From: a virus
Virus record (IMG/VR): IMGVR_UViG_3300046009_000681
Coordinates: 1 to 34,107 of that record
Direction: 5' to 3' (one strand)
Length of the DNA: 34,107 bases
Part shown: positions 3 to 23,292 of the stretch, piece after piece
Layout of the letters: every line of letters starts with the position of its first letter
Numbering within the stretch: position 1 is the stretch's first letter
Translations under genes and position numbers: made by a program
The notes under the pieces: generated by a model
What the model saw: the letters and a program-made list of their open reading frames with translations, nothing else
Told to the model about the DNA's origin: nothing
Database searches by the model: none

Positions 3-848
3 GAGTATGCTCGTTACGGCGAAGAGCATAAAGAGATTTTCGAAACTGAAACCTCTGAGCGTTCCTTCGAAGAAGAAACCAAACTGTCCGGCTTCTCAGC
101 CGCTCCTGTCAAAAACGAAGGTTCTGCCATCGCTTATGACAATGCACAGGAAGCGTTTTCTGCTCGATACAACCACGAAACCATTGCTCTTGGCTTCTCG
201 CTGACAGAAGAGGCAATTGAGGACAACCTCTATGACTCCCTGTCCAGCCGGTACACCAAGGCTTTAGCCCGTGCTATGGCTTACACCAAGCAGACTAAGG
301 CTGCTGCGATCCTGAATAACGGCTTTGACACAGACTACCCCGGTGGTGATGGTCAGCCTTTGTTTAGTACCACGCACCCCTTGGTTTCTGGTGGCGTCAA
401 CAGCAACGAACCCGCAACTCCTGCCGACCTGTCTGAGACCTCCCTTGAGGCTGCTGTTATTCAGATCGCTGCTTGGACGGACGAGCGTGGACTGCTGATC
501 GCTGCAAAGCCACGTAAGTTGGTTGTTCCTCCGTCGCTGATGTTTATCGCAACCCGCATCCTTGAGACGGAACTGCGTGTTGGTACGGCGGATAACGACA
601 TCAACGCTCTGAAGAGCAATGGTTCAATCCCAGAGGGTTACACAGTTAACCACTATCTGACCGATCCAGATGCTTGGTTCTTGTGTACTGACGTTCCCAA
701 CGGCCTGAAGCACTTCGTTCGTACTCCGATGGCTCAGTCGATGGACGGTGACTTCGATACCGGTAACGTCCGTTACAAGTCCCGTGAGCGTTATTCGTTC
801 GGATTCTCGGATCCGTTAGGCGTCTTCGGTTCACCCGGATCGCCTTGA
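3..848 (+). CDS. Major capsid protein, Mu gpT-like (5' partial)
   Basis: The reading frame is open from the left edge (first full codon at 3), so the N-terminus is missing; 281 residues are visible. The text around AIAYDNAQEAFSARYNHETI, then GFSLTEEAIEDN and the GGDGQPLF-STTHP stretch, matches what I know of Mu gpT-like major head proteins (HK97 fold). Such proteins assemble as hexamers and pentamers into the capsid shell. The gene is followed at once by a strong terminator and then by likely decoration genes, the usual place for a capsid gene. The first in-frame ATG (276) lies deep inside the conserved part and is not the start. The family is confident; whether the N-terminus is processed cannot be seen. 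Confidence 0.88.
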   Translation, partial: EYARYGEEHKEIFETETSERSFEEETKLSGFSAAPVKNEGSAIAYDNAQEAFSARYNHETIALGFSLTEEAIEDNLYDSLSSRYTKALARAMAYTKQTKAAAILNNGFDTDYPGGDGQPLFSTTHPLVSGGVNSNEPATPADLSETSLEAAVIQIAAWTDERGLLIAAKPRKLVVPPSLMFIATRILETELRVGTADNDINALKSNGSIPEGYTVNHYLTDPDAWFLCTDVPNGLKHFVRTPMAQSMDGDFDTGNVRYKSRERYSFGFSDPLGVFGSPGSP

Positions 849-2191: not shown

Positions 2192-2929
2192 ATGCAAAAT
2201 CAAAAAGGTTACACGTTGGCAGGCCGCAAGGTGTTTTTTGGCATACCTGCTTACGACCACAAAGTTTCACTCAAACAAGCCATCTCGCTAATGCGGTTTG
2301 CTCAAATTGCTCCGCAGCATGGGATCGAAATTACGATTGGAAGTATTTGTGGGTGTTCCGTGGTATCACGGGCACGTAACCTTTTGGTTCAGGACTTTCT
2401 AGAGTCTGATGCAACGGAGTTGATGTTTATTGATGCTGACATTAACTTTCAGCCAGAAGACGTTATCCGTTTGATGGCATGGATTTCTGAACCAAACATT
2501 GATATTGCTGCTGGTATCCCGTGCGCCCGTAAGACAGAAAAGACCTACATTGTTACGCTAGATGAAGATGGGAACGGCGTCACAATGAATGGTATGGGGC
2601 TAGTACGCGCCAAACGTGTGGCTACTGCCTTTATGATGATTAAGCGTGAAGTCATTGAGAAGTTGGTCAAAGACAACCCTCAGTGGAATTACTGGGATGA
2701 CAAGACCCAGCGCACACTATCGGCAATCTTTGACTTTGCCGTAAAAGACAACTCTTACGTAGGTGAAGACTACCTATTTTGTGACCGTGCCCGTGCAGAT
2801 GGATTCCAAGTCTGGGTAGACCCAACGATCAAACTAGGCCATATGGGCGTACAAGAGTACGAAGGGGACTTTGGAAACGAAGCCTTCTACCCACGGCTTG
2901 TTAAAGACGAGAAGATTGCAAATGGCTAA
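2192..2929 (+). CDS. GT-A fold glycosyltransferase
   Basis: 245 residues. The segment FIDADINF supplies a DxD-type motif (D81, D83) that in GT-A enzymes binds the nucleotide-sugar diphosphate through a metal. It follows an N-terminal nucleotide-binding stretch (KVFFGIPAYDH and later SRARNLLVQDFL). A later GEDYLFCDRARADG segment fits the acceptor-side acidic motif, and GHMG near residue 218 fits a metal-ligand His. Similar enzymes are common in phages and may glycosylate virion proteins or host molecules. The position next to the capsid genes makes virion modification an attractive guess. Sugar donor and acceptor are unknown. Confidence 0.8.
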   Translation: MQNQKGYTLAGRKVFFGIPAYDHKVSLKQAISLMRFAQIAPQHGIEITIGSICGCSVVSRARNLLVQDFLESDATELMFIDADINFQPEDVIRLMAWISEPNIDIAAGIPCARKTEKTYIVTLDEDGNGVTMNGMGLVRAKRVATAFMMIKREVIEKLVKDNPQWNYWDDKTQRTLSAIFDFAVKDNSYVGEDYLFCDRARADGFQVWVDPTIKLGHMGVQEYEGDFGNEAFYPRLVKDEKIANG

Positions 2930-3176
2930 GACTCCTGCGTGGCAACGCAAAGAGGGCAAGAACCCAAAAGGTGGGCTAAACGCTAAGGGGAGGGCATCGT
3001 ACAACGCTGCTAACCCCGGTAAGCCCGGCTTGAAGGCTCCGCAACCCGAAGGCGGCTCACGTAAGAAATCATTCTGTGCTCGCATGACAGGTATGAAAAA
3101 GAAGTTAACTAGCGCCAAAACCGCTAACGATCCAAACAGCCGTATTAATAAGAGCCTACGGGCATGGAAGTGCTGA
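2922..3176 (+). CDS. DUF6321-like small basic protein
   Basis: 84 residues starting at an ATG eight bases before the stop of the glycosyltransferase gene, with GAGAAG upstream. The frame extends further up to a TTG, but the opening MAKTPAWQRKEGKNP is the conserved one. The sequence GGLNAKGRASYNAA, the run KSFCARMTGMKKK and the end INKSLRAWKC match the pattern I remember as DUF6321, a short family widespread in phages. Function is unknown. It is strongly basic with Cys near residue 50 and at the C-terminus. It begins the cluster of small basic proteins that runs to 8155. Confidence 0.75.
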   Translation: MAKTPAWQRKEGKNPKGGLNAKGRASYNAANPGKPGLKAPQPEGGSRKKSFCARMTGMKKKLTSAKTANDPNSRINKSLRAWKC

Positions 3177-3423: not shown

Positions 3424-3942
3424 ATGAAGAAGATAAAACGGTTTCAAGAAGGTGGCTACGAAGACACCGACGATTATAAAAATCTTACGTTAGCCGCTGA
3501 CCGTGAGGCGGTTGAGTACGAAGGTGAAAAAATTGCCAAGCCCTTGAGAGAGGCTGCTGAGGCAAAAAAAGCAAAAGTTGAAACAAAAGCAGCAAAAAGA
3601 ATTGTTACTAAAGAAGAGTTGGCTAAATCTGGATTTGATAATCTTAGAGATTTCTTAAACGCAGAACGTGGTTTAAAACGTAGAGACACAATGCGTACTC
3701 CTGCTCAAGAAGCCGCCGATGATGCAAAAATTGCCGCCGCAATGCGTAAAAGTGATCGCTCTGTTGCAAAAGCAGAAGGTTCGTTTTCAGATAGGCAAGC
3801 CTATAAACGTGCTACTCAAACAGCACAAGCCGAAGAAAAACGTAAAGCAATGGGTATGAAAAAAGGAGGCATGATTGGTTCGGCTTCTAAGCGTGCTGAT
3901 GGGATTGCTGCTCGCGGCAAAACCCGTGGACGGATGGTGTAG
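3424..3942 (+). CDS. Lys/Ala-rich protein with SASKRADG C-terminal tag (copy 1)
   Basis: 172 residues. GAGG and AAG lie just before the ATG. The N-terminus (MKKIKRFQEGGYEDTDDY) is followed by a long charged, Ala-rich, probably helical region. The last 27 residues carry the linker MKKGGMIG and the tag SASKRADGIAARGKTRGR, shared with four nearby genes. The body is unrelated to the other tagged proteins, so the tag behaves as a portable C-terminal module. Function is unknown. Its place in the late structural operon suggests a virion or assembly role. Confidence 0.7.
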   Translation: MKKIKRFQEGGYEDTDDYKNLTLAADREAVEYEGEKIAKPLREAAEAKKAKVETKAAKRIVTKEELAKSGFDNLRDFLNAERGLKRRDTMRTPAQEAADDAKIAAAMRKSDRSVAKAEGSFSDRQAYKRATQTAQAEEKRKAMGMKKGGMIGSASKRADGIAARGKTRGRMV

Positions 3943-3943
3943 C

Positions 3944-4162
3944 GTGGATCCTATTAAGGCTCTTAGCATTTTGTCTACTTTGATACCCAAGCCTGTAAAG
4001 CAACCTTCGCCTTTTGCAAAAGAGGAAGATAAGAAGGAAGACAAAAAGGAAGAGAAGAAAGAAGAACCAGAAAAGAAACGCTCTGGTGGGGTAGTTGGTT
4101 CGGCTTCTAAACGGGCTGATGGTATTGCTCAACGGGGTAAGACTAAGGGAAGGATTGTGTGA
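3944..4162 (+). CDS. Small Lys/Glu-rich protein with SASKRADG tag (copy 2)
   Basis: 72 residues. The frame is open further upstream inside the preceding gene, but the GTG at 3944 lies one base after that gene's stop and gives a compact product with translational coupling. An N-terminal DPIKALSILSTLIPKP helix is followed by an almost pure Lys/Glu stretch (EEDKKEDKKEEKKEEPEKK) and the tag SASKRADGIAQRGKTKGR. The low-complexity middle looks like a spacer between the N-terminal helix and the tag. Function is unknown; the start is moderately certain. Confidence 0.65.
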   Translation: MDPIKALSILSTLIPKPVKQPSPFAKEEDKKEDKKEEKKEEPEKKRSGGVVGSASKRADGIAQRGKTKGRIV

Positions 4163-4410
4163 TGGAATTAAAAGATATTGTTAATTACGGCCCTTTTGGG
4201 GTTTTGCCACGTCTTGCCGTTAAAGAGTACGAAGGCAGGAAGCAAGACAAAATGGAAGCCGAAGAAAAACGCCGAATGGAAGAACAAGCCGCTGCTGAAC
4301 AAGCCGCTGCTCAGGGTATGAAAAAAGGCGGTAGAGTAAAAGCATCATCCGCTTCTAAACGTGCTGATGGGTGTGCAACCAAAGGTAAAACTCGCGGAAG
4401 GATGGTGTGA
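4162..4410 (+). CDS. Small protein with SASKRADG tag (copy 3)
   Basis: 82 residues, starting at the ATG of a TGATG overlap with the previous stop; a GTG one codon earlier is a less likely start. The N-terminal part (MELKDIVNYGPFGVLPRLAV) differs from the other copies. It is followed by a charged Glu/Ala helix (EEKRRMEEQAAAEQAAA), the linker MKKGGRVKA and the tag, here with Cys in place of Ile (ADGCATKGKTRGR). The same plan as its neighbours, unique head, helical spacer, GG linker, tag, argues for a common destination or partner. Confidence 0.68.
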   Translation: MELKDIVNYGPFGVLPRLAVKEYEGRKQDKMEAEEKRRMEEQAAAEQAAAQGMKKGGRVKASSASKRADGCATKGKTRGRMV

Positions 4411-4411
4411 T

Positions 4412-4672
4412 ATGGGACGTAAATCTGGAACCATGACAGCAGAACCGGGCGCGGCGCCGTCTGGTGGTAGTGGAGCGATGGGTAGTCTACTTTCTAGTAT
4501 GCAATCTTCTGGGGTCGATATGACTGGTGGAACCGCCCCAGACGAAGAAACAAAACAAAGACTTCGTGAGATGGGTATTGAAGTTTATAAAAAGGGCGGC
4601 AAAGTATCGTCCGCCTCTAAGCGTGCCGACGGTATTGCTATGAAAGGTAAAACGAAAGGCCGGATCGTTTAA
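4412..4672 (+). CDS. Small Gly/Ser-rich protein with SASKRADG tag (copy 4)
   Basis: 86 residues. The ATG at 4412 is one base after the upstream stop, with GGAAGGATGG just before it. A Gly/Ser/Met-rich, probably disordered first half (MGRKSGTMTAEPGAAPSGG) leads to a short helix (DEETKQRLREMGIEVY) and then KKGGKVS plus SASKRADGIAMKGKTKGR. An upstream in-frame start at 4361 would run through the previous gene's tag and is rejected. Function is unknown. Confidence 0.65.
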   Translation: MGRKSGTMTAEPGAAPSGGSGAMGSLLSSMQSSGVDMTGGTAPDEETKQRLREMGIEVYKKGGKVSSASKRADGIAMKGKTKGRIV

Positions 4673-5346
4673 TGTATTTAACAAGCAACATTCCGTATTT
4701 CAAATGTTGGGTTAGAAAAGAGTTTACAAATGGGCATCAGGGGTATCACGGGGAGTATGTACACGCATTAGCAGTAGCAGTAACGACCATTCCTGATAGG
4801 TGTCTTAGTTTTCAAGTCATATTTACTGGGTGTGAAGCAGATGATGGCAGTCAATCAAATGTACATGGCGGTGCGATGTGGGCAAGGATGCCGATTACCG
4901 CTTTGGTTGGGGACATACCGCTTGAGCAATGGCCTGAGCGTATGCAAACCCATCTGGCACAGCCTTGGGACTGTAGTTCGTATAACCACGGGGTTGTTAA
5001 AATTGATCGGGCGCAACCCTCTCCGTGGCTTTGTAAGATCAATAACGAGTTTCACACCGGGCGGTATCTGTTCACGGTTGATTATGCTGAGAGTGAGGTT
5101 TCAGAAGACCCGTCCCAGCATAAACAAAGCCATGTGCTTATAATGACTGATGCAGGAAAATGGACAGGAAACATAGTGGCGCTACCGAATAATCGAGTGC
5201 GAGTTACCAGCCCAGCGTATTGGGTTACTGGGCAAGGAGCGCCTGATTTTAAACCCAGCCAATGGATTCATTGTGCAGAGCAGGATGATTCGTACATGGA
5301 TCCAGAGGTTACTTTCAACAACCTGTATAAGGAGTCTAAGAAATGA
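4672..5346 (+). CDS. Conserved phage protein of unknown function
   Basis: 224 residues, starting in a TAATG overlap with the previous gene. The product begins MYLTSNIPYFKCWVRKEF and contains GGAMWARMPITAL, QPWDCSSYNHGV and TGRYLFTVDYAES. It has several Trp, Cys and His residues, a mixed alpha/beta look, and no membrane segment. I recall related hypothetical proteins from aquatic phages but no function. The stop overlaps the start of the next small gene, so it belongs to the same translational unit as the tagged proteins and may act with them. Confidence 0.65.
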   Translation: MYLTSNIPYFKCWVRKEFTNGHQGYHGEYVHALAVAVTTIPDRCLSFQVIFTGCEADDGSQSNVHGGAMWARMPITALVGDIPLEQWPERMQTHLAQPWDCSSYNHGVVKIDRAQPSPWLCKINNEFHTGRYLFTVDYAESEVSEDPSQHKQSHVLIMTDAGKWTGNIVALPNNRVRVTSPAYWVTGQGAPDFKPSQWIHCAEQDDSYMDPEVTFNNLYKESKK

Positions 5347-5555
5347 TGAAGTCCAAGATGATGGCTGGTGGCGGAATGACGAAAAAGATGGCTGCTGGCG
5401 GTGGCATGATGTCTAAGATGAAGGCCGGTGGCGGTGTTATGTCCAAGATGAAAGCAGGCGGCGGTGCTTCTAGCGCCTCTAAGCGGGCCGACGGTGTTGC
5501 TATTAAAGGCAAAACCAAGGGCAAACTGCTTGCTAAGGGCGGCATGACCAAATGA
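5343..5555 (+). CDS. Met/Lys/Gly repeat protein with SASKRADG tag (copy 5)
   Basis: 70 residues. The first 41 are four near-identical ten-residue units of the form xxSKMKAGGG, and then comes ASSASKRADGVAIKGKTKGK. Unlike copies 1-4 the tag is not terminal; it is followed by LLAKGGMTK. The ATG overlaps the upstream stop (AAATGA). The protein is extremely basic and Met/Gly-rich, so it is likely disordered when free and able to bind nucleic acid or an acidic partner. No enzyme motif is present. Confidence 0.68.
   Translation: MMKSKMMAGGGMTKKMAAGGGMMSKMKAGGGVMSKMKAGGGASSASKRADGVAIKGKTKGKLLAKGGMTK
5346..5465 (+). repeat. Four 30-base repeats encoding KM-x-AGGG units
   Basis: Tandem 30-base units encode the series KSKMMAGGG, MTKKMAAGGG, MMSKMKAGGG and VMSKMKAGGG. 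The third and fourth units are the closest. This looks like slippage-driven expansion inside the small tagged gene. Confidence 0.8.
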
Positions 5556-5833
5556 GACCCAGCCGTGGGATGGGGGCGATTAGCCCCTCTAAGATGCCGA
5601 AGGCCAAGACGATCACCCGTAAGGATGATCCGAACAAGGTCAAGATGTATGCCAAGGGCGGTGAATCCAAGGTAAACGAGGCTGGTAATTACACCAAACC
5701 CGGTATGCGTAAGTCTATATTTGAGCGGATTAAGGCTGGCGGCAAGGGTGGTGCTCCGGGTCAATGGAGTGCCCGCAAGGCTCAGATGCTGGCTATGCAG
5801 TATAAGAAAGCAGGCGGTGGGTACAAGGATTAG
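5552..5833 (+). CDS. DUF5872-like small basic protein
   Basis: 93 residues. The ATGA overlaps the previous stop. The C-terminal half (GNYTKPGMRKSIFERIKAG, then KGGAPGQWSARKAQML and the end YKKAGGGYKD) has the pattern I remember as DUF5872, found in phages and large eukaryotic viruses with unknown function. The N-terminal half (TRKDDPNKVKMYAKGGES) is a basic linker. Strong positive charge and conserved Trp/Ser/Arg around QWSARK suggest a nucleic-acid or packaging-related role, which is inference. The family name is from memory. Confidence 0.72.
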   Translation: MRPSRGMGAISPSKMPKAKTITRKDDPNKVKMYAKGGESKVNEAGNYTKPGMRKSIFERIKAGGKGGAPGQWSARKAQMLAMQYKKAGGGYKD

Positions 5834-5840
5834 GTTTCCG

Positions 5841-5993
5841 GTGTACGACTCCGCAATAGATGGGAACGTATTTGACTGGTTAATTAGTACAGCCCAAGAC
5901 TTTAGGAAGATTAGGCAGAGAGAACGAGATGTCGAACTTGAAAAAGCCGCAGCAAAGTCTGAAAGCGTGGACTCAACAAAAGTGGAGAACTAA
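5841..5993 (+). CDS. Small acidic/charged protein, 50 aa
   Basis: A GTG start seven bases after the preceding stop gives YDSAIDGNVFDWLISTAQD followed by a charged helix (RKIRQRERDVELEKAAAK). The frame is open further upstream, but only through the previous gene. The 3' part overlaps the next gene by 65 bases in another frame. No family is recognised. The coupling and lack of a better start support a real small gene, with moderate confidence. Confidence 0.5.
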   Translation: MYDSAIDGNVFDWLISTAQDFRKIRQRERDVELEKAAAKSESVDSTKVEN

Positions 5994-6192
5994 GAGTGGC
6001 AAACCTTCTACGCAAGGATCGCAGGCTACAGGGGAAAGATACCTCCCAAGCAGCGCCATCAAAGCGCTCTCCCCGCAAGAGTACGCCGCGACCACCAAAG
6101 CCAAGCGAGCCGGAAAAGCCGCAGGAAAGCAGTTCGTCGCCCAGCCTAAAGGGGTGGCTAAAAAAGTTGCTCCGCATAGAAAGGTAGGATGA
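5929..6192 (+). CDS. Small basic conserved phage protein (KWRTKSGKPS family)
   Basis: 87 residues. GAGAGAACGAG directly precedes the ATG. The motif SLKAWTQQKWRTKSGKPSTQ, then GERYLPSSAIKALSPQEYAA and KQFVAQPKGVAKKVA, is one I remember from short proteins in cyanophages and other aquatic phages and in some giant viruses, with no assigned function. The conserved Trp residues and basic charge suggest nucleic-acid contact. It starts inside the upstream gene and ends two bases before the next start. Confidence 0.7.
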   Translation: MSNLKKPQQSLKAWTQQKWRTKSGKPSTQGSQATGERYLPSSAIKALSPQEYAATTKAKRAGKAAGKQFVAQPKGVAKKVAPHRKVG

Positions 6193-6193
6193 T

Positions 6194-6460
6194 ATGGCTA
6201 GTAAATTTCCTGATTTAACCGGTGACGGTGAAGTGACCAAAAAAGACATCCTCAAGGCTCGTGGAGTTGAGGGGTTCAAAAAGGGTGGGAGCGCTAAGTG
6301 GATTCAGTCCGCTATCAAGAAGCCCGGTGCCTTAAAGAAGTCTTTGGGAGTCAAGGCTGGCGAGAAGATCCCGGCTAAAAAATTAGCCAAGGCGGCTAAA
6401 GCCCCGGGTAAACTGGGCCAACGTGCCCGTTTGGCGCAAACACTTAAGAAGATGAAATGA
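6194..6460 (+). CDS. EF-hand/dockerin-like N-terminus fused to a KKPGAL basic module
   Basis: 88 residues. Residues 5-20 (FPDLTGDGEVTKKDIL) form a dockerin/EF-hand loop with D7, T9, D11, E13 and D18 in the calcium-ligand spacing. After FKKGG comes a second module (WIQSAIKKPGALKKSLGV, GEKIPAKKLAKAAKAPGKLG, RARLAQTL), a basic helical domain I recall as a stand-alone short ORF in many phages. GGTAGGATGAT precedes the ATG. A calcium-stabilised structural role is likely; DNA or capsid binding by the basic half is inference. Confidence 0.68.
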   Translation: MASKFPDLTGDGEVTKKDILKARGVEGFKKGGSAKWIQSAIKKPGALKKSLGVKAGEKIPAKKLAKAAKAPGKLGQRARLAQTLKKMK

Positions 6461-7368
6461 GCACAACCGGGACGACCACCTTTAACCTAGACCTCAATAA
6501 CCTCGTAGAAGAGGCTTTTGAGCGTTGCGGTGCCGAGTTACGCTCGGGCTACGATATGCGTACTGCACGTCGTTCCCTTAACTTATTAACGATTGAGTGG
6601 GCTAATCGGGGTATCAACCTATGGACTATCGAACAGGGTTCCATCCCCATAAATCAGGCACAGATTTGTTATGCCCTGCCCAGCGACACAATTGATTTGA
6701 TGGACATGGTGATCCGTACCCAGACCGGTATTAACCAGTCGGACATCAATATCAACCGGATTTCTAGCAGCACCTACTCTACGATCCCTAATAAGAACGC
6801 CCAAGGCCGACCCATTCAGGTGTGGATTGACCGTCAGAGTGGGTATGAGAACGTCACAACCAAGACCCTAGCCACTACGATTACCGCGACTTCTAACACG
6901 ATTACCCTAAGTTCTGTGGATGGATTGAACTACGTTGGGTTCATCAAATTGGGTAACGAGACCATTGGTTATAACGAAATATCAGGGAATACCCTACAAA
7001 ACTGTGTTCGTGGTGTAGATAACAGCACGGCTACTGCACATACCGCCGGGGCTATTGTGACGGTGCGAAACCTGCCCAATATCTGTGTGTGGCCTGCCCC
7101 AGACCAGTCTAATTTTTATTCCTTTGTTTACTGGCGTTTGCGCCGTATCCAAGACGCTGGTAACGGTATTAACACCGAGGACATCCCTTTCCGTATGATC
7201 CCTTGTATGGCGGCTGGATTGGCCTACTACCTGTCCCTGAAGATACCTGACGCCATGAATAGGATTGAGATGCTGAAGGCGTCCTACGAAGAGCAGTGGG
7301 CGTTAGGGTCGAGCGAGGATCGGGAAAAGGCGTCTTTGAGGTTGGCCCCACGGCAGTATTTCTACTAA
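6457..7368 (+). CDS. P22 gp4-like head-tail adaptor / tail accessory protein
   Basis: 303 residues, starting in an ATGA overlap. The helical N-terminus (NLVEEAFERCGAELRSGYD, RRSLNLLTIEWANRG) and the pattern ALPSDTIDLMDMVIR are typical of podovirus tail adaptors related to P22 gp4, which form a ring under the portal and seal the DNA-filled head. A beta-rich insert around residues 130-205 (TITATSNTITLSSVDGL) looks like an Ig-like or decoration domain. The helical C-terminus (MIPCMAAGLAYYLSLKIPDA) completes the ring subunit. The gp4-like assignment rests on recalled patterns. Confidence 0.68.
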   Translation: MSTTGTTTFNLDLNNLVEEAFERCGAELRSGYDMRTARRSLNLLTIEWANRGINLWTIEQGSIPINQAQICYALPSDTIDLMDMVIRTQTGINQSDININRISSSTYSTIPNKNAQGRPIQVWIDRQSGYENVTTKTLATTITATSNTITLSSVDGLNYVGFIKLGNETIGYNEISGNTLQNCVRGVDNSTATAHTAGAIVTVRNLPNICVWPAPDQSNFYSFVYWRLRRIQDAGNGINTEDIPFRMIPCMAAGLAYYLSLKIPDAMNRIEMLKASYEEQWALGSSEDREKASLRLAPRQYFY

Positions 7369-7824: not shown

Positions 7825-8013
7825 ATGGATATGAAAGCAGCATTGAAGGCACACATGAAAAAGAAGGGCGCTAAGGCTCACCCGGACGCCAATGTGAAGA
7901 AACTAGCCAAGGGCGGCAAGACCAATCTTCAGATGAAACAATTAGGCCGGGGGCTGGCAAAAGTTGCCAACCAGAAAAAAGCCATGTCAATGGTTCGTAA
8001 AACGGGGATCTAA
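7825..8013 (+). CDS. Small basic GG-motif protein, 62 aa
   Basis: AGGAG lies eight bases before the ATG. The product is very Lys-rich (MDMKAALKAHMKKKGAK), with the motif KGGKTNLQMKQLGRGLAKVA that I remember as recurring in small phage proteins. It has no membrane segment and no cysteines. It forms a coupled pair with the next 46-aa gene. Function is unknown; the charge again suggests nucleic acid or capsid-interior binding. Confidence 0.62.
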   Translation: MDMKAALKAHMKKKGAKAHPDANVKKLAKGGKTNLQMKQLGRGLAKVANQKKAMSMVRKTGI

Positions 8014-8158: not shown

Positions 8159-8836
8159 GTGAACTACTCGACGCTGTTTCAGACCATACAAGCCTACGCT
8201 GAGAATAACTTCCCAGATACGGTGGTCGCAACTACCACTGCTACGACGACATCTTTTCTCACAAAAGATCAGGTGGACACGTTTATTCGTCAGGCCGAGC
8301 AGAGGATCTATAACAGCGTCAACCTCCCAGTAATGCGGGAGAACGTAACAGGTAATTGCACAAGTGGTAATAGGTTTTTAAGTACACCTTTAGACTGGCT
8401 TTCCACATTTTCATTGGCCCGAATTAACGCTGATGGAAGTTACGATTACCTGCTAAATAAAGACGTTGAGTTCATTCGGGAGTCTTTTCCCGCCCCTGCT
8501 ACTATAGGCGCCCCCACTCATTACGCTATTTTTGATGAGAATACGTTCATTTTAGGGCCGACTCCAGACGCGGACTACACTATGGAGTTGCTCTACTACG
8601 CTTATCCAGCGTCTATTGTTACATCGAGTACAACTTGGCTCGGTAATAACTTTGATTCCGCTCTTCTCTATGGCTCATTGCTAGAAGCCTATGCGTTTAT
8701 GAAGGGTGAGAAAGATGTTAACGATAACTACGTAGCCCGGTATAATGAAGCACTTGCCATGTTGAAACAACTTGGCGAAGGCAAAGACCGTCAAGATACA
8801 TACCGTACAACTCAAGCAAGGGTTTCAGTCCGATGA
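8159..8836 (+). CDS. SU10-type phage adaptor protein
   Basis: 225 residues from a GTG start three bases after the previous stop. The helical N-terminus with FIRQAEQRIYNSVNLP, the central beta part (PLDWLSTFSLA, PTHYAIFDENTFILGP) and the C-terminus LLYGSLLEAYAFMKGEKD followed by YNEALAMLKQLGEGKDRQD match the short-tailed-phage adaptor family named after phage SU10. The protein forms a ring joining portal and tail. It and the gp4-like gene are strong evidence for a short tail. Confidence 0.75.
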   Translation: MNYSTLFQTIQAYAENNFPDTVVATTTATTTSFLTKDQVDTFIRQAEQRIYNSVNLPVMRENVTGNCTSGNRFLSTPLDWLSTFSLARINADGSYDYLLNKDVEFIRESFPAPATIGAPTHYAIFDENTFILGPTPDADYTMELLYYAYPASIVTSSTTWLGNNFDSALLYGSLLEAYAFMKGEKDVNDNYVARYNEALAMLKQLGEGKDRQDTYRTTQARVSVR

Positions 8837-9657: not shown

Positions 9658-11580
9658 ATGCCGGGTTGGAGCATAGGGCCTTATGGGGAGGGTGACTTTG
9701 GTGTAGGTAATCCAAACGCTTTAGTAAGTGTTACTGGAGTAGTTGGTAGTGCGTTATTTGACCCTGTGGGTGTTGCTGCTGGGGGTGAAGTTGAGCCTGC
9801 TGGTGAGCAAGCGGTAATAGCACTTGGTCAAGAAACTGTAACCGCCGGTGCTAATGCATTTCCGGCAGGTGTTGAAGGTTTAGGTGAAGTTGGTGTAGTT
9901 ACGTTTAACCAAGTTGCTAATGTATTTTCGGTTGGCGTTGAAGGAGTTGGAGAAACTGGGGATGAATTTGTTAGTGTAGGTGTAGAAGTAGGTTTAACTG
10001 GAGTTCAAGCAAGTGGTGAGTTAGGTCAACTTCCAAGACTTCTTGGGTGGGGTATCGGCCCTTGGGGTGAAGGCGCTTGGGGTATAGGTAACGCCAATAT
10101 TTTTGTTAGCGTTACTGGAGTAGATGCTTCTGCATTACTCGATCCGGTAGGAGTGGCTGCTGGGGGTGAGGTAGAACCTGCTGGACTCCAAGCCGAAGTA
10201 GAACTTGGACAAGAATTAGTTTCTGCCGCCGCTAATGCACCTGTGTTTGGTGTTGAAGCAACAGGTGAGGTTGGGACTGTAGTTGCTACGGCTGGGGCTA
10301 ATGTTCAGCCTACAGGTGTAGAAGGGGTTGGAGAAACTGGAGTTCTTGCAGTTGCTCTAGCAGCAAATGTATACCTAACTGGAGTACAAGGTGATGGTGC
10401 AATAGGCGAAGAAGACGAAGAATTTGCCTATTACGTTACTGGAGTTGAAGGTTCTGGTGACGTTGGTTCTTTAAAAGTAAGTACGGATGTAAATTATATT
10501 GGCTGGGGGTCTGGGCCGTGGGGTCGTGGCGCTTGGGGCGCTGATTTCCGTGGGACAAACGTAGATCCCGTAATTGCTACCGGTCAAGTAGGTTCTGTTT
10601 CGTTACAAATTGCTGCAAACATATATGCAGTAGGTGTTGAAGCCACGGGTGAAATTGGAACCGAAACTATAGTTGGTAAGGTAAATGTTTATTTAGTAGG
10701 TCTTGAGGGTATAAGTCAGTTAGGTGAAACTGATGAAAGTGGTGCTGCTAATGTATTAGTAACTGGAGTTGAGGGAACTTCAGAACTTGGACAGGCTAAT
10801 ACCCAGATAATTAAATATGTACCGGTTTTAGGAGTTGAAGGCTCTACTGAAATAGGGTCTATGAATGGATGGGGACTAGATACATGGGGTGAATTTGGGT
10901 GGGGTCTTGGAGGTGCAACACCTGTTACAGTAGTTACTAGCGCTAATGTTCAAGTTATTGGAGTTGAAGGTGTAGGTGAGTTAGGTGAAACTGACGAGAG
11001 TGGCGCCGTCAATGTTCAAGTTACTGGAGTTGAAGGAACTTCGGAACTCGGGCAGGTTACTACTAAGACGATTAATTTTATACCACTTGTAGGTGTAGAT
11101 GCTTCTGCGTTATTAGATCCTGTAGGGGTTGCCGCAGGGGGTGAAGTTGAGCCAGCAGGGGTTCAGGCTGAAGTAGAACTTGGGCAAGATCTTGTATCTA
11201 CCGCCGCTAACGTATTCCTAATAGGAGTTGAAGGAGTTGGAGAAACCGGCTCTGTAACAGTAAGTGCTAAAGCAAATGTATATCCAATAGGGGTTGAAGC
11301 CTCTGGAGAAGTTGGTCAGGTAGTAGTAGTTGGCAAAGCAAATGTTTACCCAATAGGGATTGTTGGGACTACGCAATTAGGTGAAACTGACGAAAGTGGT
11401 GCGGCTAATGTTCAGGTAACAGGGGTTGAAGCCACTGGAGAACTTGGAGAAACGGATGAAAGTGGTGGTGCCAATGTTCAGGTCACGGGTCAGCAGGCAA
11501 CAGGTTCAGTAGGTAGTGTTGTAGTAAGAATTTCTAAAGATGTAGTTGTAACGGGGGTTCAAGGGCAAGGTCGTGTTGGA
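9658..11580 (+). repeat. Coding repeat array (TGVEG-type units)
   Basis: Degenerate repeats encode the core TGVEGxGExG throughout. The most alike longer units are the three 87-base copies at 9748-9834, 10129-10215 and 11104-11190, which encode SAL[FL]DPVGVAAGGEVEPAG and its flank. Codon differences between copies show they are not identical duplicates. Confidence 0.85.
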
Positions 11581-11679
11581 AAAGTGCTGATTTGGAGTAA
11601 AATTAATCCTAATCAGAACCCCAACTGGATACCTGTTAATGATGTACAAACACCAAATTGGTTGCCGATAGCGGCTTAA
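9658..11679 (+). CDS. Repetitive tail-fibre-like protein, 673 aa
   Basis: AAAGGAC precedes the ATG. Almost the whole protein is built of beta-type repeats of about 20-25 residues with the core ANVxxTGVEGxGExG. They are interrupted by four Trp/Gly modules of the form GWGxGPWGxGxWG (about residues 3-17, 130-144, 281-295 and 403-418). A 29-residue unit (SALLDPVGVAAGGEVEPAG, then QAEVELGQ) occurs three times. The C-terminus holds NPNW-IPV and TPNWLPI, a motif I recall from other aquatic phage fibres. No catalytic motif is seen. It most likely forms an elongated fibre or a surface-exposed virion decoration. Confidence 0.65.
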   Translation: MPGWSIGPYGEGDFGVGNPNALVSVTGVVGSALFDPVGVAAGGEVEPAGEQAVIALGQETVTAGANAFPAGVEGLGEVGVVTFNQVANVFSVGVEGVGETGDEFVSVGVEVGLTGVQASGELGQLPRLLGWGIGPWGEGAWGIGNANIFVSVTGVDASALLDPVGVAAGGEVEPAGLQAEVELGQELVSAAANAPVFGVEATGEVGTVVATAGANVQPTGVEGVGETGVLAVALAANVYLTGVQGDGAIGEEDEEFAYYVTGVEGSGDVGSLKVSTDVNYIGWGSGPWGRGAWGADFRGTNVDPVIATGQVGSVSLQIAANIYAVGVEATGEIGTETIVGKVNVYLVGLEGISQLGETDESGAANVLVTGVEGTSELGQANTQIIKYVPVLGVEGSTEIGSMNGWGLDTWGEFGWGLGGATPVTVVTSANVQVIGVEGVGELGETDESGAVNVQVTGVEGTSELGQVTTKTINFIPLVGVDASALLDPVGVAAGGEVEPAGVQAEVELGQDLVSTAANVFLIGVEGVGETGSVTVSAKANVYPIGVEASGEVGQVVVVGKANVYPIGIVGTTQLGETDESGAANVQVTGVEATGELGETDESGGANVQVTGQQATGSVGSVVVRISKDVVVTGVQGQGRVGKVLIWSKINPNQNPNWIPVNDVQTPNWLPIAA

Positions 11680-13583: not shown

Positions 13584-14015
13584 ATGGCACACTATGCATT
13601 TCTAGATGAACAAAACATTGTTACCAGTATTATTGTCGGGTTGGAAGAAACAGACGGAGACTGGGAAACTTTTTACGGATCTCAAGTAAACAAAGTTTGC
13701 AAACGAACTTCACGTAATACATATGGGGGAGTTCATTATGATCCAAACACGGGGCAGCCATCTTTAGACCAAAGTAAATCTTTTCGTAAAAATTACGCTG
13801 TCATCGGCGGTGTGTATGATTTTACTAAAGACGCTTTCGTATCGCCAAAACCGTTTAAATCTTGGGTTTTAGATGAAACAACTTGTATTTGGTTACCCCC
13901 AATACCTATGCCACCAATTGTTTTAAATCCAGACGGAACTGTTACTGGAAATGGGTATGAATGGGATGATGATTTATACATTTCTGACAACACAAAAGGT
14001 TGGGTTGCAGTTTGA
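13584..14015 (+). CDS. Tail-fibre-associated conserved protein
   Basis: 143 residues. The opening MAHYAFLDEQNIVTSIIVG, the centre YGGVHYDPNTG and KNYAVIGGVYDFTKDAF, and PKPFKSWVLDETTCIWLPP match a family I recall from marine phages, encoded next to fibre genes, with no proven function. The Trp-rich C-terminus (NGYEWDDDLY) is typical. It is probably a fibre attachment or capping protein. Its stop overlaps the TTG start of the oxygenase gene. Confidence 0.65.
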   Translation: MAHYAFLDEQNIVTSIIVGLEETDGDWETFYGSQVNKVCKRTSRNTYGGVHYDPNTGQPSLDQSKSFRKNYAVIGGVYDFTKDAFVSPKPFKSWVLDETTCIWLPPIPMPPIVLNPDGTVTGNGYEWDDDLYISDNTKGWVAV

Positions 14016-14608
14016 TAATAAACACTTCTTGGCCTTTTGTTGTAAATGAAAATACAGCGCAGTGGGCTTTTTGGGATACCGCTTTTTCAAAAGAAGAGTG
14101 CGAAAAAATAATAAAACTTGGTAAAAAACAAGTTTTAGAAAAGGGGTTTGTTAATTCTGATGGTAAAAATATAGTAGATGAGCATATACGAATTTCAAAT
14201 GTTTCTTGGTTGTTTCCTTCCAATGATACAGAGTGGATTTATAAAAGACTAACAGACATTATTGTTGAGTTAAATAAAAGATTTTTTAATTATGATTTGT
14301 ATGGAATTATAGAAGGTTTACAATTTACTGAATATTTTGGCGATAGAAGTGGTATGTACACAAAGCACATTGATTCTACGTCCAATGGAGTAATTAGAAA
14401 AATTTCTGTTTCAGTTCAACTTAGTGAATTAAATTCATATGAGGGCGGGAGTTTGTTATTACATACAAGTTCTAACCCTCAAGAAATGGCTAAAGATGTA
14501 GGCAAATTAATTATGTTCCCTAGTTTTGTGCTACATGAAGTAACTCCAGTGGAAAAAGGAACAAGATATAGTCTAGTTGCATGGGTTACTGGCCCTCCAC
14601 TTAAATAA
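14012..14608 (+). CDS. Fe(II)/2-oxoglutarate oxygenase, prolyl hydroxylase-like
   Basis: 198 residues from a TTG that overlaps the previous stop (TTGA); an earlier in-frame TTG at 14000 is less likely. The double-stranded beta-helix ligands are visible: H119-x-D121 in YTKHIDST, H175 in FVLHEV, and R185 in GTRYSLVAWV, which binds 2-oxoglutarate. SLLLHTSS and FPSFVLHEVTP have the usual spacing. Such enzymes hydroxylate proteins (for example proline) or small molecules. The coding DNA is unusually AT-rich (12 of 60 G/C at 14281-14340), suggesting separate acquisition. The substrate is unknown; the fibre proteins next door are candidates. Confidence 0.8.
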   Translation: MIINTSWPFVVNENTAQWAFWDTAFSKEECEKIIKLGKKQVLEKGFVNSDGKNIVDEHIRISNVSWLFPSNDTEWIYKRLTDIIVELNKRFFNYDLYGIIEGLQFTEYFGDRSGMYTKHIDSTSNGVIRKISVSVQLSELNSYEGGSLLLHTSSNPQEMAKDVGKLIMFPSFVLHEVTPVEKGTRYSLVAWVTGPPLK

Positions 14609-14619
14609 GGATTAAGAGA

Positions 14620-14835
14620 ATGAAAACAATAATTGAAGCGCATAAGGTAGACGGGGTAAAAGTCTGCCGCTCGGAAGAAGTCCATGTTTGTGCCGCTTGT
14701 GGGTATGACTTGGATGAGGCTGAGTTGGCTGCTGATACGTGCTCCGATTGTGGCGCACCCTTGAAGTTAAGAAAGTCCGTATCGGTCTGGGCTACATCCA
14801 TACCCAAAGCCGGTGCTAAAACTTGGGGTCAGTAA
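14620..14835 (+). CDS. Small zinc-ribbon protein, 71 aa
   Basis: AAGGATTAAGAG precedes the ATG. Four cysteines in two pairs (C24-x2-C27 and C41-x2-C44) form a rubredoxin-like zinc ribbon of the pattern CAACGYDL and CSDCGAPL. There is a basic C-terminal tail. It lies between two oxygenase genes and shares a TAATG overlap with the second. The role is unknown; it could be a small partner or adaptor for the oxygenases. Confidence 0.68.
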   Translation: MKTIIEAHKVDGVKVCRSEEVHVCAACGYDLDEAELAADTCSDCGAPLKLRKSVSVWATSIPKAGAKTWGQ

Positions 14836-15413
14836 TGGACAATTTTATTGTCTCTTACCATAACGCCTATCCTAAAGAGTATTGCAACCAAGTTATAAAT
14901 TGGTTTGATCAGGCAGTTGCGTCAGGGCTTGGTTTAACTAGACAAGAAATAGACAAAGTCCCAAAATATGCAAAGGACGATATTACTGTATTTCCATTTA
15001 CTGAAAGCACTCTAAGATTGGGAACATCTGGTAATTTATATGCTGAATTTATAAATCCATTTTTTAATAAATATTATTCTAATTATGTATCTAGATTTTC
15101 AATATTAGAAACCTTTGCTAGTCAAACAGTTTATGAATTAAAAGTCCAAAAGACAGTCCCCGGTGGTGGGTACCATGTATGGCACTCCGAAACTGACGAT
15201 AGAAACACTGCAAGTAGGCTACTTGCTTTTACTCTTTATCTAAATGATATTGAAGAAGGTGGGGAAACTGAATATCTTTATCAGGGGCTTCGGATAAAAC
15301 CAGAACAAAGTACTTTAGTTATTTGGCCTGCTGGCTTTACTCATACACATAGAGGTAATCCACCACTAAAAGAAACTAAATATATAGTTACTGGTTGGGT
15401 TGAATATAGATAG
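14835..15413 (+). CDS. Fe(II)/2-oxoglutarate oxygenase, PKHD-type
   Basis: 192 residues starting in the TAATG overlap. The ligand set is H117-x-E119 in YHVWHSET (Glu in place of the usual Asp), H172 in FTHTHRGNPP, and K182 near the C-terminus in ETKYIVTGWV in the 2-oxoglutarate position. FTLYLNDIEEGGETEYLYQG is the classic core of the family. The N-terminus (YPKEYCNQVINWFDQA) is helical as in prolyl-hydroxylase-like phage enzymes. The likely role is oxidative modification of a protein or other macromolecule during virion maturation; the substrate is unknown. Confidence 0.82.
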   Translation: MDNFIVSYHNAYPKEYCNQVINWFDQAVASGLGLTRQEIDKVPKYAKDDITVFPFTESTLRLGTSGNLYAEFINPFFNKYYSNYVSRFSILETFASQTVYELKVQKTVPGGGYHVWHSETDDRNTASRLLAFTLYLNDIEEGGETEYLYQGLRIKPEQSTLVIWPAGFTHTHRGNPPLKETKYIVTGWVEYR

Positions 15414-16905: not shown

Positions 16906-17353
16906 TTTTTCTCTTGCCGAGATGGTGAAGTCTGATACTGCACTGCGGCATGACATGGACAACACACCCGGGGAGACTGAGATTGCTAATCTTAAAACAC
17001 TCTGTGAGAAGGTACTCCAGCCCATCCGTGACCACTTCCAAACCGGAGTTAAGGTCAACTCCGGGTACCGCAGCCCAGACGTTAATGCCAAAGTTGGGGG
17101 ATCACGCACATCAGACCATTGTAAAGGACAAGCAAGCGACATCGAGATTCCCGGTATTGCCAACGCAGACTTAGCCGTGTGGATTATGGACAACCTTGAC
17201 TACACCCAGTTAATCCTTGAGTTCTACACCCCCGGGGTGCCAGATTCGGGGTGGGTGCACGTCTCCTACGACCCTGCTAACCTCAAGAAAGAGAACTTGA
17301 CGGCTACTAAGCAGAACGGTAAAACGGTGTATCTAAAAGGACTTGTTGCCTGA
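16889..17353 (+). CDS. Endolysin, peptidase M15A
   Basis: 154 residues. Zinc ligands H77 and D84 in SDHCKGQASDIEI and H124 in WVHVSY match M15A murein peptidases (D-Ala-D-Ala carboxypeptidase-like / endopeptidase lysins). The N-terminal helix with LQPIRDHFQTGVKVNSGYRS is typical. There is no signal peptide, so export depends on the holin just upstream. It cleaves peptide cross-links of peptidoglycan at the end of infection. Confidence 0.88.
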   Translation: MQLTNNFSLAEMVKSDTALRHDMDNTPGETEIANLKTLCEKVLQPIRDHFQTGVKVNSGYRSPDVNAKVGGSRTSDHCKGQASDIEIPGIANADLAVWIMDNLDYTQLILEFYTPGVPDSGWVHVSYDPANLKKENLTATKQNGKTVYLKGLVA

Positions 17354-18024
17354 TGAAAACTGTGCACTTTCCAGTTACAGTAGTTGACGATTTTTTTGAC
17401 TATCCAGATTCGGTTAGAGATTTTGCTTTGTCTCAAGAATACAATTTTGGGGAAAATACAAGGTGGCCCGGTAAACGCTCAAAGCATTTGCATGAATTAA
17501 ATTTTAATTTATATCATTCGTTAACCTGCAAAATTATGTCGTTGTTTTATGATTTGCGGCGTGTAAATATGAACTGGAGTGTAGACGCATTTTTTCAAAC
17601 AGTTGATTCTGTTTATGAAAACGGTTGGATACATTCAGATTTAAATTTGGTTTCTGGTGTTATATATTTATCTAAAGAAAGTAATAATTCTGGAACTACC
17701 ATATATAGACCAATAAATCCAATAGATGCTAAATTTAAAAATGAAGAACATAAAAATAAAAGTTATGAAAATATAGAAGCAATAAAAAATTTTGATAGTT
17801 TTAAAGAAGAAAATAACAAACAATTTAAACCATCAATAACAGTAGAATCTGAATACAACAGGTTAGTAATGTTTGATGGGCATATGTTTCACGGCGGGAA
17901 TAATTTTTACGGTGAAAGTTTAGAAGAAAGTCGATTGACTTTGGTATTTTTTGTCAAGCAAATTAATTTTGATAGTCCAATTGGGCATCAATATCCAATC
18001 CCTCGTTTAAAAACATATTTTTAA
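17353..18024 (+). CDS. 2OG-Fe(II) oxygenase-like protein, DUF6445-type
   Basis: 223 residues, starting in a TGATG overlap with the endolysin stop. The ligand pattern is H94-x-D96 in WIHSDLNLVSGVIYLS, a distal His (H177 or H180) in MFDGHMFHGGNN, and R194 in SRLTLVFFV. This is the oxygenase-fold arrangement I remember for DUF6445 proteins. The N-terminus (VVDDFFDYPDSVRDFAL) also fits. The gene is very AT-rich (11 of 60 G/C at 17701-17760), unlike the endolysin before it and the tail gene after it. This suggests a moron-like insertion. Substrate unknown. Confidence 0.72.
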   Translation: MKTVHFPVTVVDDFFDYPDSVRDFALSQEYNFGENTRWPGKRSKHLHELNFNLYHSLTCKIMSLFYDLRRVNMNWSVDAFFQTVDSVYENGWIHSDLNLVSGVIYLSKESNNSGTTIYRPINPIDAKFKNEEHKNKSYENIEAIKNFDSFKEENNKQFKPSITVESEYNRLVMFDGHMFHGGNNFYGESLEESRLTLVFFVKQINFDSPIGHQYPIPRLKTYF

Positions 18025-20745: not shown

Positions 20746-23292
20746 ATGCAATATCCCACCATAGGCCAACCCCAATACGGATTCGCTCCCACCATGCCCG
20801 GTATGGCTGGTGGTGGTTTAGCGGCTTTAGCCAACCAGTATCGTAGAGGTGGCGGAGTTAGGTATTACGAAGAAGGTGGTGATACCGGTACAGGTGGAGC
20901 CGATTCTAGTGCTGAAGGTGGCGCTGGTGCAGCATTTGGGGGTGGTAATGATCCCGGCCCCGGTAGTAGCGACCCCGGTGTTGGAGGTGGGGGTGGTACT
21001 GATCCCGGTGCTGCTGCTCAAGCCGCCGCTCAAGCCGTAGATAACGCAGTTGATTTTGGTCAAGATGTCGCTGCCGCAGAAGCCACTCTGGGGGCACAGA
21101 TAGCCGCCGAAGCCGACGAGGCTGAAGCAGAGAACGCCGCAAATACCGCCGCCGCTTTAGGAGCGCAAGCAAACGCTATAGCCGCAGAAGCAATCGCTAA
21201 CGCAGAAGAAGACTCTAAGAATGCCGAAATGGCTGCGGTCATGAGCGGTCAGGTTGCAGGGTTTCCGGGGCCGTCACAAGCAACACCGGGGTTTGGGATT
21301 AGTTTTCAGAACCCTTTTAATACAGACATTTCAAAAGGATTTGGTATGTTTAGTCCTTTTGCGACAGTTCAAACCCCATTTGGAAACGTTCCAGTTAGTC
21401 CTATGGATGTTGCTGCTCCTGCTATGGGTAGGGGTGCATCGGCAGTAAATACCGCCGTTAACGTAGGCAGTATGATGGGTTTAAAAGAAGGTGGAGAAAT
21501 TTCGGGTAGGTATCAATATACTTACAATCCTGAAAATCAAACATACACTCAAATTTCAGGCCCGGGTATGGCTTCTGGGGTTTCTGGGGCTTCTGGAATG
21601 ACTAATTTTGGGTCGGGTTTAGGGGCGTTAGTAAAAGGACACAACATAAATGAAAACCCCACCCAAGAAGATTTAGACAAATTTTTATCGGCTCTTATGA
21701 ATAAATACTCCCAAGGCGGTATTGCCGCAGCGCAACAAGCACAAAGTAAAGGCCGTGGTCAGGACACGATGCTTGTTCACATGACTCCCGGTGAGGTCAA
21801 AGGACTTCAGGCTTTGGCTATGTCCCAAGGTGGCTCGCTCACTATTAACCCCCAAACTGGACTGCCAGAGGCAGGGTTCTTAAGCGCCATTCTCCCAATG
21901 GTGGCTGGCTTTGCTCTTGGCCCAGCAGGGTTTCAAATGATGTCCGCGCTTCAGGCTGGCCTAACTGTAGGTGCCTTGACAGGTGTGGCTACAGGAAGCC
22001 TTAAGAAGGGCTTGATGGCGGGTCTAGGGGCTTATGGTGGCGCTGGTTTAGGTGAAGGCCTACAGGCTGCGGCTGGAACACCTGAGAATTTAATTTCTGC
22101 AAATCCACCTTATAACCCAGACTTGCTAACTACTTACGGGTCACCACCAACAACACCTTTAGGGATAGGTTCTGAAGGGGCATCAGTGTCCGCAGGGGCT
22201 TATACCCCCACACCCGGTATGGCACCAAATGTAATGCCCCCAGACGTAGCCAGTGGTCGTTTTGTTGACGAGGGAATTGCAAAAGCCGGTTATACATACG
22301 ACCCCGCAGGTAAGTCTTTAATTAAAATGACACCAGATGCAATGCCCCCAGACGTAGCCAGTGGTCGTTTTGTTGATGAAGGAATTGCAAAAGCCGGTTA
22401 TACATACGACCCCGCAGGTAAGTCTTTGATTAAAACACCCGTTACTGGGTCGGTACCCGGTAGCGGCGGTCAAGCACTTGGAAGTGTGGCTAAAGATACG
22501 ACTTATGCTCAGTTACCACCTCCACCCCCAGTGCAGGCTACAGGTATAGACGCAATTACTGGCGGCACTAAAGCCATGATCCAACCGGGAGCAGAAGGTG
22601 CCGCTGCTCGGGCTAGGTTTGGTGCGGCTCTTCCATACGGTACAACTATAGCCGCAGGTGTGCCTTTGGCTTCGGCGGCAGCAGAACCTCCAAAAGGCCC
22701 CGAGCCATCAAAATCCCACATCCGTGGCTACGATTTAGACATTACTAACCCATCGGGCACGCCTCAGTACACCCCGCAAGACACAAGGGAACGGGAGCAG
22801 GTACGTTATGCATTCAGCCCACGGCCTATCTACGAGGCCGCTCAAGGTGGTCTAGCCGCCCTCAACGGGCAAACCTACGATGACGAGTATGGTCGGGATG
22901 AGTACGAGGAGGGTGGCTCTGTAAAGAAACGCAAATCTAGGTCTCTTAAGGGTGACCCCTACTATGCATTTGCTGATAGCCGCCGTAATCAGTCTATGGA
23001 AGCCGCTATCGAGCAAAACTTTGCCAAAGGTGGCCTACCTCCACGGTTTTTATCAGGTGGTGGCGACGGTATGAGTGACTCAATCAAGGCGCGTATTGGT
23101 GGGGTGCAGGAGGCTCGACTGGCTGATGGTGAGTTTGTAGTTCCAGCAGATGTGGTATCCCATCTTGGTAATGGGTCAAGTAAGGCTGGCGCTAAGAAGT
23201 TGTATGCGATGATGGATAAAATTAGAAAAGCAAGGACAGGGCGCACAAGACAAGCACCTGAAGTCAACGCACAAAAATATATGCCCGCATGA
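20746..23292 (+). CDS. Large glycine-motif virion/internal protein, 848 aa
   Basis: AGGA lies about 10 bases before the ATG. The protein is rich in Gly, Ala and Gln, with an Ala/Glu-rich helical stretch at about residues 85-170 and a hydrophobic Gly/Ala region near 380-450 (SAILPMVAGFALGPAG) that could enter a membrane during ejection. Short GG motifs recur (GGGLAAL, YEEGG, KEGG, QGGLAAL, YEEGGSVKK). The C-terminal domain (GGVQEARLADGEFVVPADVV, then SKAGAKKLYAMMDKIRKA) is one I recall at the ends of large phage proteins. It carries a 36-residue tandem duplication. It is probably an ejected or internal virion protein. Confidence 0.6.
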   Translation: MQYPTIGQPQYGFAPTMPGMAGGGLAALANQYRRGGGVRYYEEGGDTGTGGADSSAEGGAGAAFGGGNDPGPGSSDPGVGGGGGTDPGAAAQAAAQAVDNAVDFGQDVAAAEATLGAQIAAEADEAEAENAANTAAALGAQANAIAAEAIANAEEDSKNAEMAAVMSGQVAGFPGPSQATPGFGISFQNPFNTDISKGFGMFSPFATVQTPFGNVPVSPMDVAAPAMGRGASAVNTAVNVGSMMGLKEGGEISGRYQYTYNPENQTYTQISGPGMASGVSGASGMTNFGSGLGALVKGHNINENPTQEDLDKFLSALMNKYSQGGIAAAQQAQSKGRGQDTMLVHMTPGEVKGLQALAMSQGGSLTINPQTGLPEAGFLSAILPMVAGFALGPAGFQMMSALQAGLTVGALTGVATGSLKKGLMAGLGAYGGAGLGEGLQAAAGTPENLISANPPYNPDLLTTYGSPPTTPLGIGSEGASVSAGAYTPTPGMAPNVMPPDVASGRFVDEGIAKAGYTYDPAGKSLIKMTPDAMPPDVASGRFVDEGIAKAGYTYDPAGKSLIKTPVTGSVPGSGGQALGSVAKDTTYAQLPPPPPVQATGIDAITGGTKAMIQPGAEGAAARARFGAALPYGTTIAAGVPLASAAAEPPKGPEPSKSHIRGYDLDITNPSGTPQYTPQDTREREQVRYAFSPRPIYEAAQGGLAALNGQTYDDEYGRDEYEEGGSVKKRKSRSLKGDPYYAFADSRRNQSMEAAIEQNFAKGGLPPRFLSGGGDGMSDSIKARIGGVQEARLADGEFVVPADVVSHLGNGSSKAGAKKLYAMMDKIRKARTGRTRQAPEVNAQKYMPA
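22233..22436 (+). repeat. 108-base tandem duplication inside a virion gene
   Basis: Two copies (22233-22340 and 22341-22436) encode MPPDVASGRFVDEGIAKAGY followed by TYDPAGKSLIK. They differ at only a few bases, for example GACGAGG versus GATGAAG and TTTAATT versus TTTGATT. The frame is kept (36 residues). The near identity points to a recent duplication. Confidence 0.9.

Follow-up and report, generated by a model that had tools for sequence, protein, structure and literature searches.

What a single short peptide does on several different proteins is the question raised by a late locus in a virus record from IMG/VR (34,107 bases; the whole stretch analysed is called the window here), in which five + strand open reading frames (ORFs) bear one basic 17-residue tag with the consensus SASKRADG-[IVC]-A-x-[KR]-GKT-[KR]-G-[KR]. 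The tagged cluster spans positions 3424-5555. Start codons of the window ORFs were picked from the ORF list, and the resulting lengths match those given in an earlier note on this DNA.

3424..3942, + strand: tagged gene 1, 172 aa; tag at 3880-3942 (SASKRADGIAARGKTRGRMV); homologues found
3944..4162, + strand: tagged gene 2, 72 aa, GTG start; tag at 4100-4162 (SASKRADGIAQRGKTKGRIV)
4162..4410, + strand: tagged gene 3, 82 aa; tag at 4348-4410 (SASKRADGCATKGKTRGRMV)
4412..4672, + strand: tagged gene 4, 86 aa; tag at 4610-4672 (SASKRADGIAMKGKTKGRIV); homologues found
4672..5346, + strand: untagged gene within the cluster, phrog_3704 family ('ferredoxin' in PHROGs)
5343..5555, + strand: tagged gene 5, 70 aa, with KMxAGGG repeats; tag at 5472-5531 (SASKRADGVAIKGKTKGKLL), followed by AKGGMTK

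The earlier note had described five adjacent small ORFs with a common tag at or near the C-terminus, preceded by a GG linker. A degenerate DNA pattern of the tag recovered exactly these five copies and no further ones in the 34-kb record, where shuffling leads one to expect 0.05 copies and five were reached in 0 of 100 shuffles, and a GG lies a few residues upstream of the tag in all five. Genes 1-4 end three residues past GKTxG; in gene 5, KLLAKGGMTK follows GKTKG, so that the tag is near but short of the C-terminus. The description was thus accurate except as to adjacency, which holds for genes 1-4, as they abut, and not for gene 5, which is parted from them by the phrog_3704 gene. None of the 39 homologues of this intervening gene carries the tag. 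A scan for promoters and terminators over the tag cluster gave nothing above shuffles.

To assess the spread of the tag, IMG/VR was scanned at the protein level with gene 5 and by pattern with the core of the tag, and together the two scans retrieved at least about 200 contigs. Regular-expression and HMM searches found at least 544 tags, at least 469 of them distinct, in 201 contigs, a number that takes in three MAG contigs and the window itself; because these contigs are fragments, and some are near-duplicates, the counts differ from numbers of independent events. The tag HMM was trained on pattern-selected tags, and a sample of loci chosen by connector gene rather than by tag agrees with it: 56 of 58 such loci, a few of which overlap contigs already retrieved via the tag, carry tags, 141 in all and every one on the + strand. 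DGx4GKT is kept in 134 of these 141, the remainder having R, H or L in place of K, or N in place of D. When only connector-selected loci with 2 kb or more of upstream sequence are counted, 43 of 45 are tagged, with a mean of 2.2 tags and 0 control matches on the minus strand.

Searches beyond this set returned little. The C-terminal and N-terminal forms of the tag gave no tblastn match in 50,697 GenBank phage records, a set outside which very near records possibly lie; since the same queries, run in a local control on a database of equal size, recovered more than 450 C-terminal hits (and 66 N-terminal ones), this negative is meaningful rather than a filtering artefact. The mention, in the earlier note, of similar tags in other aquatic phages accordingly found no backing in these records, and the tag was found in a single large uncultured phage lineage, probably aquatic to judge from the sources of relatives, of which no cultured member and no virion or prohead proteome was found. 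In 84,980 prokaryote genomes the pattern occurred on three contigs, of which two (L204 and L206) are phage-like MAG contigs with several tags and the third looks like a chance match; apart from the two phage-like contigs these genomes are without the tag, in keeping with the supposition that it does not belong mainly to non-viral proteins. No model covering the tag was found in Pfam, NCBIfam or PHROG, and 85 tagged proteins had nearly no matches in the three collections, although seven of them have an N-terminal module in common with PHROG 'virion structural protein' families. A text search of 5.39 million papers for the tag sequence gave no relevant match.

The tagged genes occupy a constant genomic niche, which in the window is bounded by the following genes.

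276..848, + strand: major capsid protein (MCP), C-terminal part, the gene being truncated at the window's left end; full-length homologue at L221:9524-10441
2922..3176, + strand: DUF6321 gene, untagged in the window; homologues at the same position elsewhere are tagged after the final Cys
6457..7368, + strand: connector-type gene; it lies directly after the tag cluster and served as the synteny anchor
7825..8013, + strand: small gene before the SU10 adaptor, untagged in the window; relatives are N-terminally tagged (MAYTKSADGIAKKGKTEGKNLGDSGP)
8159..8836, + strand: SU10-type head-tail adaptor (PF24175, E 1.3e-23)

All tags share the strand of the structural genes, with the MCP gene at a median of 3.3 kb upstream and the connector gene at a median of 1.1 kb downstream. 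At the 109 loci that reach from DUF6321 to the connector, 296 tags fall within the interval and another 30 lie at most about 0.9 kb beyond it; on 20 contigs measuring 23-87 kb, the tags are gathered in a single cluster adjoining the connector, save for two stray matches that look like chance. Among the matches listed from an unbiased IMG/VR pattern scan, a module marker was present at 119 of 119 tag loci and an MCP or connector-type gene at 117 of 119; over all tag loci, an MCP or connector-type gene was present at 197 of 200. No tag was found in any homologue of the MCP, connector or adaptor, as expected if the tag marks cargo.

The gene order of the late module could be read in L221, a 62-kb relative: TerL, portal, GroES, a scaffold-like protein, MCP and a cement-like protein are followed by DUF6321, a p3178-like gene, the tagged genes, ph17747, ph14910, the connector and an SU10 adaptor-like gene. 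The scaffold-like protein (L221:7379-8440, net charge -12) belongs to a PHROG without an assigned function, and we infer its role from position and charge. No prohead protease family was detected in this late module, in which several proteins have no assigned function. Phage DSL-LC04 (OR003939), the nearest GenBank relative by tail protein, has the same late order of capsid, cement, DUF6321-like, p3178-like, small GG-rich proteins and Pam1-type adaptor, and phages of the HMO-2011 type have small genes in common with the tagged lineage; the regions examined in both contained no tag.

Within the tag, the relaxed profile has the core D-G-x-x-x-[KR]-G-[KR]-T-[KR]-[GA] with fixed spacing, and the residue ahead of the core D varies (RADG, RGDG, KSADG, PSRDG). 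In an alignment of 85 tagged proteins of low similarity the only invariant residues are M1, one G of the GG, and the D, G, G and T of the tag; K and R swap freely at tag positions 6, 10 and 12. Compared between contigs, tags on bodies without homology have 72.5% identity, and at identical tag residues the same codon is used in 42% of cases between contigs and 47% within a contig. In the window, where codons had been said to differ between copies, the same codon indeed stands in only 65 of 137 pairs at identical residues, and the copies are 63-82% identical in nucleotides. Since residues match while codons differ, selection acts on the protein sequence of the tag and the matches do not stem from DNA copying. 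Rapid gene turnover in the interval and the position of tags at gene ends would suit a repeat kept at the DNA level, whether a product of recent duplication or gene conversion or an anchor for recombination that shuffles genes, but the codon and nucleotide figures make this extremely improbable, and codon divergence largely refutes recent duplication and recombination anchors. In homologous pairs dN/dS did not differ between tag and body (0.18 vs 0.19). Tags are more similar within a genome than between genomes (0.760 vs 0.725; 0 of 500 permutations), an excess that is small and may owe something to shared ancestry, and that is what co-evolution with a genome-specific partner would give.

In the AlphaFold model of the window's gene 1 the helices are loose and the tag is coil, with a pLDDT of about 50 or lower, and the model of a tagged DUF6321 protein has a helical domain at weak confidence, with a pLDDT of 35-43 over the tag; the DUF6321 fold prediction, with a pTM of 0.41, is too weak for structure-based search. 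The tag is thus predicted to be a disordered flexible tail. These models bear on the likeness of its G-x4-G-K-T to the Walker A pattern, G-x4-GK[ST] fitting 560 of 567 relaxed tag matches, which might point to a free-standing P-loop that binds phosphate or nucleotides. A low-confidence coil with no folded domain around it, together with natural variants that have R, H or L at the key lysine position in connector-selected loci, leaves that reading next to no probability, and a P-loop enzyme was rejected, as no strand-loop-helix in a folded domain is predicted and the lysine is not invariant.

The tag has a net charge of about +4 to +5, the window tags one of about +5 (+7 for gene 5 with its extra tail), and the bodies are basic too. 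Such charges, and the free exchange of K and R, would suit a nucleic-acid-binding tail that holds small basic proteins on phage DNA for condensation, protection or ejection with no specific receptor in the head; T4 internal proteins touch DNA phosphates by way of lysine (PMC3012670). We regard this as the main rival to a head address, unlikely though a serious contender. It is D, G, G and T that are most constrained and the charged residues less so, which favours specific recognition over bulk charge; a generic DNA tail would hardly be expected to keep an acidic residue nearly invariant, and DNA binding would not require linkage to the capsid-connector interval.

The tag is carried by many unrelated bodies. 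These fell into 108 clusters, 78 of them singletons, and as low-complexity sequence links the members of the largest cluster into a chain, the cluster count is an estimate (about 100). The DUF6321 family allows gain and loss to be followed on one body. Among 132 homologous ORFs, most of which end in SLRAWNC or AWKC, 12 have GG and the tag joined directly after the terminal Cys and three (in L199, L043 and L048) have a half-tag (GGGCEVRGKTKGK) that is without the ADG part and looks like an intermediate or a degraded tag. Mapped onto a tree built from 65 connector proteins, the tag state of DUF6321 switches at least five times, and near neighbours on the tree differ in it (L109 tagged vs L182 untagged; L073 tagged vs L084 untagged).

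The tag lies near the C-terminus in about 91% of distinct instances, at a distance to the stop that varies (12, 15 or 21-40 residues). The N-terminal form is limited to one family, p7825, relatives of which start with MAYTKSADGIAKKGKTEGKNLGDSGP. The earlier note had proposed a portable C-terminal tag as a common address, and a profile search to see whether it is always C-terminal and always beside capsid genes. The idea of a portable address holds up against this search: portability and a place by capsid or connector genes (197 of 200) came out as proposed, and the restriction to the C-terminus did not.

Position also bears on a degradation or processing signal, either a C-degron of the ClpX type or a protease site. 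In most cases the tag closes the protein, and its end is basic and hydrophobic (GRMV, GRIV); MuA has a basic C-terminal ClpX signal that loosely resembles this end. We consider such a signal very improbable, because the distance to the stop is variable, an N-terminal form exists, the invariant residues are internal and no phage protease family was found in the late module examined. A free C-terminus at a fixed distance from the tag was not found, and the ClpX-type C-degron was rejected on that ground.

In 17 tagged bodies (in L077, L094, L118, L126, L141, L160, L164, L181, L191 and others) we observed a module of about 30 residues, AFxxARxxGxxxFx[WF]xGKxYxT, for which tblastn returned weak matches among crAss-like phages (in one case under a 'tail lysozyme'), Roseobacter phages and ssDNA microviruses.

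The tag is conserved at the protein level, portable, lineage-wide and confined to the capsid-connector interval. The reading that we favour, quite possible though short of probable, takes the tag for a short linear docking peptide by which small proteins, a hypervariable set, are loaded into the prohead. The tag would recruit unrelated small late proteins to the head under assembly, where its receptor would most likely be the scaffold or the inner capsid surface, and the tagged proteins would end up in the virion, from which they could pass into the next host. Recognition would fall on the near-invariant D-G-x3-[KR]-G-K-T-[KR]-G, carried on a flexible tail behind the GG hinge, and the bodies would be fast-evolving, exchangeable cargo on which the address alone is conserved.

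Docking to some other late partner, such as the connector or tail vestibule, the GroES-like co-chaperonin of the phage or a host factor, is distinctly unlikely, although a tag that binds a late non-structural protein, or DNA, would leave the same genomic pattern. The cluster lies just upstream of the connector gene, its adjacency to the connector is as constant as that to the capsid, and the phage encodes a GroES homologue; on the other side, no co-varying partner was identified, and the many unrelated bodies suit a cargo compartment better than a stoichiometric part of the tail.

Loading into the prohead by a docking peptide has parallels in known systems. The capsid targeting sequence (CTS) of T4 is N-terminal and is cut off by the gp21 prohead protease; the title of reference 48 in PMC9024508 speaks of proteolytic processing. 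No prohead protease was found in the L221 late module, where several proteins have no assigned function, so that a cleaved signal of the T4 kind may be less likely here. The internal proteins of T-even phages are a diverse set whose only common feature is the CTS (PMC3012670), and the tag resembles the CTS in being a short terminal peptide common to otherwise unrelated late proteins, with the address alone conserved (PMC3012670); it differs in being mainly C-terminal and unrelated in sequence. The best reading is that the tag would work like a capsid-targeting sequence outside the T4 family, mostly at the other terminus.

Cargo-loading peptides of encapsulins are usually C-terminal, sometimes N-terminal, and sit on unrelated cargo beside an HK97-fold shell gene (PMC7355545). 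The tag is likewise short, found at either end and joined to unrelated cargo candidates near such a gene, here the MCP (PF25209, PF10124) upstream on the same strand, the HK97 fold of which is taken from family assignment. An encapsulin peptide is about 10 residues long and lies in a hydrophobic luminal pocket, whereas the tag has about 17 residues, is basic and rich in Gly and Ala, and has neither a hydrophobic core nor the residues to fill such a pocket; the shell, too, would be a phage capsid in place of an encapsulin. In P22, a short-tailed phage, the ejection proteins gp7, gp16 and gp20 need scaffold for entry into the procapsid (PMC8402733), and as late proteins drawn into procapsids by scaffold they resemble the proposed role of the tag bearers; PMC8402733 describes no tag shared among them, and gp7 and gp20 are thought to be recruited via their N-terminal portions. 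A terminal segment of phage P1 DarB steers a reporter protein into the capsid (PMC9024508), DarB being one antirestriction protein and the tag a feature of many small proteins.

More tentatively, the uncultured lineage may run a modular form of cargo delivery that arose independently of T4, with one address peptide usable at either end, small effector-like proteins swapped by gain and loss of the tag, and the capsid-connector interval as a cargo island of fast turnover. If the tag is an address, it would allow virion cargo to be predicted from a sequence signature in uncultured phages, whose functions are almost unreadable, would mark out a hypervariable island of possible host-facing proteins, and would be a further solution, unrelated to the T4 CTS, to the problem that the CTS solves. 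The natural pairs of DUF6321 proteins with and without the tag make the question of an address directly testable.

Several observations concern other features of the tagged proteins and of the window. Gene 1, the body of which is mostly helical or disordered, begins with MKKIKRFQEGG, and the N-terminal motif K-[KR]-[FY]-x-GG is present in 33 of 465 tagged proteins (gene 1 and examples in L037, L089, L161 and L181), so that some bear marks at both ends. Motifs of the form [KRYF]-x-[KASETR]-GG are enriched relative to shuffles in small late proteins (window 5343-6460) and in an 848-aa protein (20746-23292), as if a single short GG motif were used across several late proteins. The connector protein is without its middle stretch (about window residues 132-205) in G001, G012 and G013 (L056, L134 and L135), as if an inserted domain came and went among relatives. 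A 673-aa protein (9658-11679) consists almost wholly of repeats like VTGVEGxxELGQ and is probably a fibre or surface repeat. Three late-region proteins (14000-14608, 14823-15413 and 17353-18024) resemble 2OG-Fe(II) oxygenases by eye, and at the end of the late region a 2225-aa protein of the polyvalent-protein type (26048-32725) has LPD38 and ART-PolyVal (ADP-ribosyltransferase) domains.
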